A stretch of DNA of 32,033 nt from a bacterium. GTDB lineage: Bacteria; Bacteroidota; Bacteroidia; Cytophagales; Thermonemataceae. Shown here in pieces: positions 1 through 23,257 of the stretch. The notes beneath the pieces are model-generated. The model searched no databases. It was not told where the DNA came from and saw only the letters and a list, made by a program, of their open reading frames with translations. Location of the stretch: NCBI GenBank assembly GCA_025362415.1, contig JANYGM010000280.1:1-32033 (forward strand), read 5' to 3'. Each line of letters opens with the position of its first letter. Position 1 is the first letter of the stretch. The position numbers and the translations under genes were made by a program.

Positions 1-130
1 TCTTTTTTATTAGTGGTCTGTACCGTAGTGGAACGAAGGTCTGACCACTAATAAAAAAGAGTAAGTTCGTTTTAAAAAGAATTATGGTCAGACCTTCATT
101 GCATTACGGTACAGACCATAATTTTTTTAA
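1..130. repeat. Two inverted copies of a hairpin element (1-60 and 74-129)
   Basis: 1-18 TCTTTTTTATTAGTGGTC is perfectly complementary to 43-60; a second hairpin at 74-89/114-129 carries a reverse-complement 24-nt loop differing at about 3 positions. Confidence 0.85.
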
Positions 131-4188: not shown

Positions 4189-5145
4189 CTAGGGGTTGGG
4201 GGCTATTTTGGGGTTGGGGGCTATTTTCAGCACATAAATCAAACTAGAATAATTATCATTTCCTGCTTTAAGATTTGATACCAAACCACGCCAAAAAGCC
4301 TTTATTTTGTTCAGAAAGCTACTTTTATTGTTGTCTTTATACTCCATACTTAGCATACTGATATAAAAAGCATCATATTTCATTGGTAAAATCTTCTCCA
4401 AAGTAATATTATGCCTTTCAAAAAGCTGTTTTAGCGTACTTTTAGAAAAATGGTACAAATGTCTTGGCACATCATAAGCCGCCCAAAAACGTCCAAAAAA
4501 CTTCGCATCATCACTTTCTAAGTTCGGAACAGCAATAATGAGCCTTCCATTAGGTTTTAGGAGGCTTTTCAGATGCAAAATGGTTTTGTCTAACTCGTGA
4601 ATATGCTCCAAAACGTGCCAAAGCGTGATAATATCATACCTTTTTTCTGTTTTTATCTCAAAAACATCAGCAAAAATAGTTGTATTATTATTTTGATTAG
4701 AAAGCGTTTTTATGGCAATATTTCTAGCTTCTGTATCAGTTTCTACGCCTTCAATATTCCAATTATTTTGGGCGCACACCTCCAAAAAAGCACCTACGCC
4801 ACAACCCATATCTAGCAAATATTTTTCATTATTTTGCTGATTATTTTGCGTTGAAAATTCATTGATAATATTAAGTTTTCGTGCTAATGCACGCTCACGC
4901 ACATAATAATAAATTTTGCTAATAATGCCTTTCTGCTCGTTTGAGTGAGAAATATAATTACCAGACTGATAATATTTGACAATTCCTTCTGCGGTTGGAC
5001 GTGGACTTGTAAACACAAAATTACAGGCATCACAACGCAAAAGGTTAAATTTTTGTGCTGTGTGAGCAGTATTGTCTTCACACACCAAAAACGGACTAAA
5101 TTTTGCCTCTTTACAAACAGGACAATTTGAAACTTCTTCTAACAT
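4189..5145 (-). CDS. Class I SAM-dependent methyltransferase with N-terminal Cys cluster
   Basis: CPVCKEAKF..CDACNFVFTSPRP; LLDMGCGVGAFL; WHVLEHIHE; VPNLES..FGRFWAAYDVPRHLYHFS. Confidence 0.85.
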   Translation of the reverse strand: MLEEVSNCPVCKEAKFSPFLVCEDNTAHTAQKFNLLRCDACNFVFTSPRPTAEGIVKYYQSGNYISHSNEQKGIISKIYYYVRERALARKLNIINEFSTQNNQQNNEKYLLDMGCGVGAFLEVCAQNNWNIEGVETDTEARNIAIKTLSNQNNNTTIFADVFEIKTEKRYDIITLWHVLEHIHELDKTILHLKSLLKPNGRLIIAVPNLESDDAKFFGRFWAAYDVPRHLYHFSKSTLKQLFERHNITLEKILPMKYDAFYISMLSMEYKDNNKSSFLNKIKAFWRGLVSNLKAGNDNYSSLIYVLKIAPNPKIAPNP

Positions 5146-7525: not shown

Positions 7526-7576
7526 AGGTTTAATTCATTGAATTTTCTGCAAAAATAAAAAACTTTGGACAAATAT

Positions 7577-7697
7577 AGGACTTACACAAAACCTATTAAA
7601 AACCACCCCTAACCCCTCCTAAAAAGGAGGGGGACAAACTCCTCTCCTTCCTAAGGAGGGGTTGGGGGTGGTTATAGAACTTTTTTACATAAGTCCT
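7577..7697. mobile_element. MITE-like element with GC-rich palindromic core
   Basis: Terminal AGGACTTAC..GTAAGTCCT-like inverted repeats (one end CATAAGTCCT), core CCACCCCTAACCCCTCC...GGAGGGGTTGGGGGTGG; a near-identical inverted copy at 23092-23213; TA at both ends. Confidence 0.75.
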
Positions 7698-7882
7698 AAA
7701 ATAATAAGGCAAAGAAGTATATTTATATAGTTTTATTTTTTTATATTTGATAAAAATATAAAATTTGATAAAATTTTACAAAAAATAAATGTAAATTTAG
7801 CACACTTTTAAAACTATATCAAACCTTGTGTTAGTTCACAGTGTTAGTTCACAACTGAAAACTAATCTAAATCACTTATCTT

Positions 7883-11297: not shown

Positions 11298-11319
11298 GTT
11301 ACCTTTGCGCTAGTAAATG

Positions 11320-11512
11320 GTAATAATTTTCTGTTTTAGGGAATTATTTTAAAAGGGAATACGGTGAAATACCGTAACTGTCCCCGCAACTGTAAGTTTT
11401 TTTTAGCGTTAGTCAATACTCTAGCCACTGTTTTAATCATTTTGAACAACAATTTAAAATGAAAATGGGAAGGCGACAAAACGTGAAACGAGTCAGGAGA
11501 CCTGCCAATTAC
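11320..11512 (+). ncRNA. Cobalamin riboswitch
   Basis: GGGAATACGGTGAAATACCGTAACTGTCCCCGCAACTGTAAG; AGCCACTG; GGGAAGGCG...GAGTCAGGAGACCTGCC; upstream of a TonB receptor. Confidence 0.93.
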
Positions 11513-11695
11513 AAAATCATTCAAAGCTTTCGGGTGAAAAGCAATGAAATCTATCACTTTTTTGATGTGTAATATATAATATGTAATGTATAATATATTT
11601 CGCAAAAATTTTGTCATATATTTTCATCAAATCTACCAAAATGTTTTGGGTGAAACAGAAATTTTTATTATTTCAGTTTTACTTCAAATACGTTT

Positions 11696-13834
11696 ATGTT
11701 TTTAAAGACATTTCTACCACCCCTAACCCCTCCTAACAAGGTGGGGGATAAAAAAATTTCCTCCTTATTAGGAAGGAGGAAAGAAAAGCTCCCCTCCTTC
11801 CCAAGGAGGGGCTGGGGGTGGTTTTACTTATGTATGCTCACTTGTGCGTCTACTTATGTATGCGCACAAACACCTAGTAATCAAAAAGATACAATTTCTA
11901 AAATTTCGGAAGAAACACTACAAACAGTAGAAGTTTCTGCATTTTCTTTGCAAAAATATAGTGTTGGTTTGAAGAAAATATCCCTTGATAGTACCAATTT
12001 GGCACTTTATAGTGGGCGTTCTGTGGGAGATTTTCTGATGATGCAAACACCCATTTATATCAAAGAATATGGCGCAGGAATGCTTGCAAGTGCCTCTTTT
12101 CGTGGGACTGGCGCAGGACACACAGCTTTTGTGTGGAATGGAGTAAGTATTGGCTCTCCTACACTTGGAGAAGTAGATTTTTCGCAAATGCCAATGTTTA
12201 TTTTTGATAATCTTTCTGTGCAGTTTGGGGGTGCATCTTCTTTATTGGGGACAGATGCAATAGGTGGCTCTATTGTGGTAGAGGGCAATATTCCTGCTTT
12301 TAAAAGCACAAATAAATACTTTTCTCCAAAACTTTTTTTACAACAAAAAATAGGCAGTTTTGGACGAAATAATACTAATTTTGGACTTGTTTTAGAGAAT
12401 AAAAATATCATTTCTCAAACAAAAATCTACCATAATACTGCCAAAAACAACTTTTCTGTTGATGGAAAAGAAAATAAGCACGCAAGTTTTAAGAATGCAG
12501 GCTTTTTACAAGAATTTGCGTTCAAATTACCCAAAAATCAATATGTTTTATTCAAAACGTGGTATCACAACGCTTTTATAGAACTGCCAAACCAGACAAG
12601 CACCCAAAAAGACCAAAATCTGCGTGTTATGGCTGATTATTTCAAAGAAACGAGCAATATCGTTTATAATGCAAAACTCGCTTACATCAAGGATATAATG
12701 TATTTTAATGAAGAGAAAACACAAACAGAACGCTTTGTAGGCACTTTTGGAGCTGATATTTCGTTGAATAATCAATTAAATATTCGTTTGGGTGGAAATA
12801 TAAATTATATTTTGATGAATGTTGATGCTTATGTAACATCAACCAACACAAAACAGCCCACAGAACTACGTAATGATGTTTTTGCACTTGTGCGCTGGCA
12901 AGCAAAAAAACGCTTTTCAATGAGTGCAAACCTACGTCAAACCTTTGTAAGTGGCTTTAAAGGTGCTTTTGCGCCAAGTTTTGGAGTAGAATACCAACTG
13001 AAGAATATACAAAAAACCACCCCCAGCCCCTCCTTTGGAAGGAGGGGAGTAGAAAAAGTCCCCCTCCTTTTTGAGGAGGGGTTAGGGGTGGTAAAAACTA
13101 CACTCATTCTTCTCAAAAGCAATATTTCTCATAATTATAGAGTACCAACACTTAATTCTCGTTATTGGCAACCAGGCGGAAACCCAAATATACGCCCAGA
13201 ATCAAGCTACAACGCTGAAATAGGTGTTTCTGCAACACACAAACGCAATAATTTTGAGTTTAAAAGTAATCTTACGACTTATCAAAATTATGTAAAAGAT
13301 TGGATTTTGTGGCATCCAAACGCTACAAACAGCAATTTTTGGACACCTGACAACTTGCGTGAGGTGCGCATACGTGGCGTAGAAATTGATGGTGCAATTT
13401 CTTATAAAAATAATCAGAATAAAATCCTAAAAAGTGCCAAAATAGGTGTTAGTTATGCTTATACGCAATCTACCAACTTAAAAGGAACTTCGGAAAATGA
13501 TACAAATTCTGAAGGAAAACAACTGCCTTATGTGCCTTTCAATAGAGTTACTGCATTTTTTGAGGTGATTTGTGGCAAAAATTTCATAAGTGGACAGACC
13601 CAATATACAGATGTGCGTTTTCTTACAACTGACAATAGTGAATTTGTCAAACCTTTTGTAGTTACTAATCTTAATTTTGGACGAAATATGAGCATTGATA
13701 TTAAAAATAAAAAACAAAAAATTAGTGTTTCAATGCAAATTAACAATGTTTTTAATCTTACTTATACCAATGTAGGCACAAATATGATGCCTCCAAGAAG
13801 TTTTGAGGTGAATTTGAGTATAATAGCCCCCTAA
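11696..13834 (+). CDS. btuB: BtuB-like TonB-dependent receptor (with two in-frame palindromic insertions)
   Basis: Plug: LQTVEVSAF..GRSVGDFLMMQTPIYIKEYGAGMLASASFRGTGAGHTAFVWNGVSI; barrel: YRVPTLNSRYWQPGGNPNIRPESSYNAEIG; preceded by a B12 riboswitch. Confidence 0.85.
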   Translation: MFLKTFLPPLTPPNKVGDKKISSLLGRRKEKLPSFPRRGWGWFYLCMLTCASTYVCAQTPSNQKDTISKISEETLQTVEVSAFSLQKYSVGLKKISLDSTNLALYSGRSVGDFLMMQTPIYIKEYGAGMLASASFRGTGAGHTAFVWNGVSIGSPTLGEVDFSQMPMFIFDNLSVQFGGASSLLGTDAIGGSIVVEGNIPAFKSTNKYFSPKLFLQQKIGSFGRNNTNFGLVLENKNIISQTKIYHNTAKNNFSVDGKENKHASFKNAGFLQEFAFKLPKNQYVLFKTWYHNAFIELPNQTSTQKDQNLRVMADYFKETSNIVYNAKLAYIKDIMYFNEEKTQTERFVGTFGADISLNNQLNIRLGGNINYILMNVDAYVTSTNTKQPTELRNDVFALVRWQAKKRFSMSANLRQTFVSGFKGAFAPSFGVEYQLKNIQKTTPSPSFGRRGVEKVPLLFEEGLGVVKTTLILLKSNISHNYRVPTLNSRYWQPGGNPNIRPESSYNAEIGVSATHKRNNFEFKSNLTTYQNYVKDWILWHPNATNSNFWTPDNLREVRIRGVEIDGAISYKNNQNKILKSAKIGVSYAYTQSTNLKGTSENDTNSEGKQLPYVPFNRVTAFFEVICGKNFISGQTQYTDVRFLTTDNSEFVKPFVVTNLNFGRNMSIDIKNKKQKISVSMQINNVFNLTYTNVGTNMMPPRSFEVNLSIIAP
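11717..11821. repeat. GC-rich palindromic element core inside btuB signal-peptide region
   Basis: CCACCCCTAACCCCTCC...GGAGGGGCTGGGGGTGG, same family as the core at 7603-7671. Confidence 0.85.
13017..13091. repeat. GC-rich palindromic element core inside btuB barrel region
   Basis: CCACCCCCAGCCCCTCC...GAGGAGGGGTTAGGGGTGG, same family. Confidence 0.88.
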
Positions 13835-13934
13835 CAGCCCCCTAACCCCAAAGGGGGGATTTTAATACAAATACAAAAAATAATTCAATAATTCAAAGTA
13901 AAATAGTTCAAATAAACAAAATAATCCAATTAAA

Positions 13935-15165: not shown

Positions 15166-15192
15166 GTTTTATCATTCTTCAAGCAAATAAAA

Positions 15193-15248
15193 ACAGTTTG
15201 AATATTTTTCAGACTGTTTTTTTGTGTTAGAAATTTGTGTTATATTTG
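15193..15248 (+). repeat. 56-bp direct repeat copy 1 (terminator + promoter)
   Basis: ACAGTTTGAATATTTTTCAGACTGTTTTTTTGTGTTAGAAATTTGTGTTATATTTG; 55/56 identical to 15901-15956. Confidence 0.92.
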
Positions 15249-15277: not shown

Positions 15278-15883
15278 ATGGCATTTTCAGCATACAAAAC
15301 ACTAGAATTAGTACAAGATAAATACCCACAAATAGAAGTTAGAAACCAAAAATTTATTCCTAATGATTTGGAGGAATTTGTTGTAAAACCATCTTTAATA
15401 GAAGAAATAGACCTTAATTTGCTCACTTACCGTAGCAATGAATTTTATGCCACAGAAAACCTTGTTTCTCCCATACTTAGAGCAGCGTGGCGCAAATATA
15501 TGAAAGAAATAAATATGTGGACACATCAAGCCATCAAATATGATGAAGATTTGAGCGGAACGCCTGATTTTATGTTTACACATCTCAAAAAAGAACAATA
15601 TGAAGTAATGTCTTATCCTATTATCACGACAGTAGAGGCGAAAGCAGAAAATTTTGTAGAGGGTTGGGCGCAATGTATTACACAAATGCTTGCTTGTCAG
15701 AAACTTAACACAAAACCAAATGTAGTTATTTTTGGGATTGTTACGACTGGCAAACAGTGGGAATTTGCTAAATTAGAAGAAAATACCGTTACAAAAAACA
15801 TTGTTGGTTGTGATATTTATGGTTTACCAAAATTACTAGCTATGTTGGATTACTTATTGGGAGAAGCTAAAAAACAATTATAA
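15278..15883 (+). CDS. PD-(D/E)XK-like protein of unknown function
   Basis: LSGTPDFMF ... TTVEAKAENFVEGWAQCITQMLA matches the D...ExK...Q layout. Confidence 0.6.
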   Translation: MAFSAYKTLELVQDKYPQIEVRNQKFIPNDLEEFVVKPSLIEEIDLNLLTYRSNEFYATENLVSPILRAAWRKYMKEINMWTHQAIKYDEDLSGTPDFMFTHLKKEQYEVMSYPIITTVEAKAENFVEGWAQCITQMLACQKLNTKPNVVIFGIVTTGKQWEFAKLEENTVTKNIVGCDIYGLPKLLAMLDYLLGEAKKQL

Positions 15884-15900
15884 AATTTTATTGATTTATA

Positions 15901-15956
15901 ACAGTCTGAATATTTTTCAGACTGTTTTTTTGTGTTAGAAATTTGTGTTATATTTG
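15901..15956 (+). repeat. 56-bp direct repeat copy 2 (terminator + promoter)
   Basis: ACAGTCTGAATATTTTTCAGACTG hairpin + T-run + TATATTTG. Confidence 0.92.
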
Positions 15957-23017: not shown

Positions 23018-23091
23018 ATAAAAGTATAATAATAAGTAATTGTGAATTTTTAATTGTGAATACATATAAAATTTTAGCAACTGTTTAGGTT

Positions 23092-23213
23092 AGGACTTAC
23101 GCAAAAAAGTTCTAAAACCACCCCCAGCCCCTCCTTAGGAAGGAGGGGAGTTTGTCCCCCTCCTTTTTAGGAGTGGGTTAGGGGTGGTTTTTAATAGGTT
23201 TTGCGTAAGTCCT
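23092..23213. mobile_element. MITE-like element, inverted copy of 7577-7697
   Basis: AGGACTTACGCAAAA ... TTTTGCGTAAGTCCT; TA at both ends; reverse complement aligns end to end with 7577-7697. Confidence 0.82.
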
Positions 23214-23257
23214 ATAGGTAATAAACCTAGTCATACTCGTACTTCAAACTTCGTACC

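Follow-up and report, generated by a model that had tools for sequence, protein, structure and literature searches.

A REPIN-like palindrome in frame within a BtuB-like receptor gene, and a DUF559 nuclease as its candidate mobilising enzyme

The window analysed here, a 32,033-nt stretch of contig JANYGM010000280.1 from a metagenome-assembled genome (MAG) of the family Thermonemataceae (Bacteroidota), encodes a TonB-dependent, BtuB-like receptor whose reading frame holds two palindromic elements (Table 1). The receptor scored below the cut-off of the TIGR01779 BtuB model; nonetheless, given the riboswitch upstream and a DUF5074 protein encoded downstream, its neighbourhood would fit a corrinoid-uptake operon. 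Further along the window, 57-nt direct repeats (98% identical; 15192-15248 and 15900-15956) surround a 201-aa ORF at 15278-15883, possibly another mobile unit.

Table 1. Positions of the receptor gene, its palindromic elements and related features in the window
Feature	Position	Strand	Basis
TonB-dependent receptor, BtuB-like, host gene, 712 aa	11696..13834	+	PF07715 plug and PF00593 barrel
Cobalamin riboswitch RF00174, 108 bits, upstream of the receptor	11301..11523	+	Rfam, window
REPIN-like palindromic element with a 75-nt core, within the receptor frame	13017..13091	+	sequence, fold, family alignment
Left half of the core: head CCACCCCCAG 13017-13026, hairpin CCCCTCCTTTGGAAGGAGGGG 13027-13047	13017..13047	+	sequence, family alignment
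Spacer between the halves, 12 nt	13048..13059		
Right half of the core, inverted: hairpin CCCCCTCCTTTTTGAGGAGGGG 13060-13081, head TTAGGGGTGG 13082-13091	13060..13091	-	sequence, family alignment
First copy of this family, in frame, 105 nt with three hairpins; in the signal peptide, with MFLKTFL before it and FYLCMLTCASTYVCAQ after it	11717..11821	+	
MITE with TAGGACTTACGCAAAA-type ends, core 7603-7671 as cargo, intergenic	7574..7704	.	
Second MITE of the same kind, core 23118-23187 as cargo, intergenic	23085..23216	.	

Each half of the element joins a conserved head (CCACCCCYAR) to a small hairpin (CCCCTCC..GGAGGGG), the two halves standing inverted to one another. The 75-nt core translates as TTPSPSFGRRGVEKVPLLFEEGLGVV and folds into a single long hairpin (RNA MFE -58.5 kcal/mol, z -8.0), with none of 200 shuffles as stable; the first copy folds at -65.2 kcal/mol (z -6.4). 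A sequence-only reading of this DNA had described a 75-nt in-frame core, a frame that stays open for about 740 nt beyond it and strong GC-rich hairpins in the transcript, all of which held: the boundaries are exactly those in Table 1, the stop lies at 13834, 743 nt further on, and both elements fold stably. Its picture of two in-frame insertions in one receptor needs amending, as both are indeed in frame but derive from one dispersed family, and 13017-13091 lies in the barrel while 11717-11821 falls in the signal-peptide region and not in the mature protein. Several copies of the family, in two other loci (L097 and L118) as well as at 11717, immediately precede the hydrophobic core of signal peptides.

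All 12 aligned receptor homologues skip 13017-13091: a turn of a few residues in them corresponds to a segment 26-28 residues longer in the present receptor, which points to an insertion and not to a sequence inherited from the ancestor. An AlphaFold2 model of the receptor (mean pLDDT 77) shows a loop at residues 443-465 with pLDDT below 50, joining strands 428-441 and 465-482, and this loop is predicted to be a short turn, probably periplasmic judging from how short and long connections alternate. The earlier suggestion that the insert forms a loop between beta-strands is thereby borne out by both the homologue alignment and the model, in which the flanking strands are intact. What was found is not a decaying gene interrupted in a core strand: plug and barrel domains are both matched by Pfam and the whole frame is open. 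Genomes of the same family were considered for an empty receptor site at the DNA level and rejected, because an exact-pattern search found the element in none of them and the closest receptor homologue shares only 42% identity; a scan of the genome contigs with the receptor gave zero matches.

The element belongs to a family with the layout AACCACCCC..hairpin..spacer..hairpin..GGGGTGGTT, whose half-site pattern matches 231 times (117 + 114) in the 3.45-Mb MAG, the reversed control giving 0. A census of 792 kb of this MAG, which is an 82% complete assembly, found 103 clusters of 59-153 nt, 54 of them within two MITE families and 49 solo. One MITE family is represented twice in the window, and the second likewise bears the palindrome core as cargo, often at contig ends. 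Solo cores recurrently end in AA..TT, and neither an exact target site nor a constant target duplication was found in the copies aligned.

Counting a copy as lying within a gene when 80 or more codons were open on each of its sides, on one strand and regardless of frame, we found 28 solo clusters within genes in the 792 kb, all 28 frame-open and none broken, and no MITE-borne copy (0 of 54). Without the four of these 28 that consist of a single 17-nt half, 24 full-size copies remain, again all frame-open, so that the frame retention claimed by the sequence-only reading holds for the receptor copy and for the full-size in-gene copies alike. Pfam assigns the host genes to class I tRNA synthetases (LeuRS, CysRS and IleRS-type), RsmA, RsmF, QueA, MetH, MutS, EPSP synthase, Mur ligase, AcrB, and ABC and MFS transporters. 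Some in-frame copies have core lengths that are not divisible by 3; ends must therefore vary, and the element does not by itself fix the frame. The simplest cause of frame retention would be selection, that is, purifying removal of out-of-frame copies, and the inserts are presumably translated. Single enzymes, such as MetH (L076) and LeuRS (L133), hold several separate in-frame insertions, including tandem TTPNPSFxGGE units.

DUF559 nuclease domains also occur in frame at two places in the MetH of this genome. One has the present element on either side and is the only DUF559 so flanked in this 82% complete assembly; the other lies between repeats of a different palindrome family. The repeats around the latter are related to a family of the form CCCCCTAACCCC..AAAGGGGG, which in the window occurs at gene ends (13831-13857 and 4192-4227). 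DUF559 was present in 122 of 248 sampled Bacteroidota genomes, often within frames of 850-1480 codons, and its hosts by Pfam are LeuRS (at two sites), MetH, RecG, HsdR, HsdM, type ISP enzymes, UvrD-like helicases, a B12-dependent mutase and others. The peptides flanking the domain are encoded by the repeats. Matched repeats stood on both sides of DUF559 at 55 of 81 Bacteroidota loci versus 4 of 242 cross-locus controls, and random controls from the same locus rarely attain the matched-repeat score; the other 26 loci, among them the RecG inserts and several LeuRS inserts, show no clear paired repeat. The DUF559 model (pLDDT 90) matches the folds of NGO0050 (3hrl) and of the I-Bth0305I catalytic domain (3r3p, E 1.7e-4), and weakly that of Vsr; a profile search also matches 3r3p (E 8e-7), and all 42 copies compared share the residues D55, E66, D68 and H72. 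Pfam scans of the hosts found DUF559 alone between host domains, with no intein Hint domain. Among open-access papers on DUF559, titles and abstract excerpts contain no link between the domain and repeats.

Occupied and empty sites can be compared in LeuRS, where the linker between NWIGKSVGA and FTTRPDT measures 31 aa in two species of one genus and 188 aa in a third, whose linker consists of repeat-DUF559-repeat at the same position with the ends AAACCTCACC..GGTGAGGTTT. A fourth species has a linker of 150 aa with a degraded DUF559, and other species of the genus have intermediate linkers with other short repeat-like inserts. The same LeuRS site is occupied by the present element in the genome studied here, and one MetH linker holds DUF559 domains of two different clades in different genomes. 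Seemingly other short in-frame palindromes, for example TCGAGCGCAGTCGAGA, lie in the LeuRS linker of sister species (L359-L374), which suggests an insertion hot spot.

The association of nuclease and repeat extends beyond this genome. The DUF559 domains most closely related to the MetH copy (60, 57, 52 and 50% identity) come from other genomes and hosts, and most of them have the same CCACCCC head. We then assembled a fresh test set of 80 GTDB loci, chosen solely by protein similarity to the DUF559 clade of the MetH copy and not all independent, since several are from Pontibacter and Hymenobacter. Head and hairpin occurred within 300 nt at 56 of these 80 loci, at 5 of 82 loci with other (mixed) DUF559 and in 15 of 841 background windows, and the hairpin arm at 70/80, 14/82 and 35/841, respectively. 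The strict head pattern was present at 29 of the 80 clade loci, and the other common head, CCTCACCCC, at none. The clade spans about a dozen phyla, and 23 of its 26 loci outside Bacteroidota were positive, including Acidobacteriota, Nitrospirota, Planctomycetota, Marinimicrobiota and Desulfuromonadia (phyla as given in record titles). The heads vary in orientation relative to DUF559, mostly pointing inward; those of solo elements point outward. Over all DUF559 and their repeats the correlation was weak (Mantel test, rho 0.075, reached by 18 of 2000 permutations), probably as a result of many decayed flanks. Repeats with CCTCACCCC numbered 95 sites in DUF559-positive genomes and 4 in negative ones, a partly circular comparison that we set aside because some positives had been chosen for such flanks.

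Taken together, we consider it likely that the palindrome at 13017-13091 is a mobile REPIN-like element in non-autonomous form, with a DUF559 nuclease as its most likely cognate enzyme. Weighing against this are the single DUF559 flanked by the present element in the 82% complete assembly, the 26 of 81 loci with no clear paired repeat, the heads that mostly point inward around DUF559 but outward in solo elements, and the varying ends of the copies. With somewhat less assurance, we favour the broader view that REP-like palindromes and homing-type DUF559 nucleases form a new class of mobile element, found in about a dozen phyla, which inserts in frame into conserved genes, carries its nuclease as an internal domain and leaves dispersed non-autonomous hairpins.

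The foremost alternative is an ordinary REPIN moved by a RAYT (a Y1 HUH transposase) that we missed, with DUF559 a passenger in repeat-rich DNA. The REPIN architecture is identical, and six PF01797 (Y1) proteins are encoded in a genome of which 18% is missing. However, each of these six genes (L067-L072) has its own distinct and unrelated palindrome family at its flanks, and the CCACCCC repeat borders none of them (0 of 6 in this 82% complete genome); we therefore found no cognate RAYT, and rejected the six as partners. The co-variation of DUF559 type and repeat type over about a dozen phyla also counts against a passenger role, and we regard this explanation as unlikely. At the start of the window (14-118), the inverted palindromes TGGTCTGTACCGTA..GGTCTGACCA are the repeat that flanks the Y1 transposase L072, an ordinary RAYT-REP pair.

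It is distinctly unlikely that the element is a selfish insert resembling Rickettsia palindromic elements (RPEs), mobilised by an enzyme that is unknown or extinct, and that the repeats around DUF559 reflect insertion nearby. RPEs are palindromes found in frame in unrelated protein genes (PMC10969869; PMC3733652), and in-frame insertion into unrelated metabolic genes, as seen here, is their hallmark; REPs of the CGTC type, some of them intragenic, are without a known mobilising enzyme (PMC3733652). Nearby insertion sits poorly with paired repeats that flank most DUF559 genes, far above controls, and with a 9-nt head that is kept the same across phyla. We hold it improbable that the elements are retained for their usefulness, as domesticated linkers or mRNA hairpins: though DUF559 inserts in LeuRS persist in several related genomes with intact domains and decayed flanking repeats, presence and absence differ within one genus and unrelated hosts are hit. 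Translational bypass, of which the mitochondrial byp hairpins are a case, RNA splicing or protein splicing could remove the inserts from the mature protein and would suit strong GC-rich hairpins in AT-rich genes and insertions in essential enzymes, but every in-gene copy is frame-open at any length, which neither bypass nor splicing needs, and Pfam scans of the hosts and Rfam in the window revealed neither an intein nor an intron family, making this highly improbable.

Mobilisation by DUF559 may proceed as follows. We propose that the autonomous form is a repeat-DUF559-repeat unit, often inserted in frame, so that the host protein would contain, as an internal domain, a small endonuclease of the Vsr/I-Bth0305I type. 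The nuclease would recognise the repeat ends and nick or cut them, driving the copying of the element into the break through homing-like repair or a hairpin intermediate, and short copies could result when the nuclease is lost or when the repeat pair itself is copied directly. The receptor gene would have received one such non-autonomous copy, which may survive because it reads through in frame and because the 26-28 residues it adds lie in a flexible turn that connects two barrel strands. DUF559, classed as a domain of unknown function, thus becomes a candidate mobilising enzyme for at least one repeat class. If true, this would explain the nuclease domains and the proline- and glycine-rich stretches within LeuRS, MetH and RecG, and would offer a way for mobile DNA to reshape essential proteins without splicing.

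Among known systems, the closest likeness is to REPIN/BIME with RAYT (TnpA-REP), with which the present family shares two inverted short palindromes, an asymmetric conserved 5' head, dispersal in many copies, a long hairpin and one enzyme gene bearing the matching repeat at its flanks. RAYT genes are flanked by REPs with a GTAG tag (PMC6006769, PMC3733652), whereas here the tag is absent, the conserved head is AACCACCCC, and the partner would be DUF559 (Vsr/EDxHD-like) rather than any of the six PF01797 genes of the 82% complete genome; REPs are also mainly extragenic, while solo copies of the present element are largely intragenic and in frame. RPEs (likened here by description) and intragenic CGTC or GTAG REPs share the in-frame palindromes in unrelated functional genes and differ in that a candidate enzyme is identified here and that other phyla are concerned. 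EDxHD/Vsr-like homing endonucleases such as I-Bth0305I resemble DUF559 in a nuclease fold with conserved acidic residues and, together with inteins, in occupying conserved sites of essential genes, in placing the nuclease in frame with the host and in presence or absence among close relatives, as with the empty and occupied LeuRS of one genus. They differ from it in that no self-splicing intron or intein domain was found with DUF559, which instead has palindromic repeat borders and dispersed short non-autonomous copies. MITEs, too, combine short non-autonomous elements with what seems to be an autonomous counterpart; for the solo core, however, a constant terminal inverted repeat plus target duplication was not found, and the two true MITE families merely carry it. 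By analogy, then, the system most likely behaves as a REPIN would if a homing-type nuclease took the place of the RAYT.
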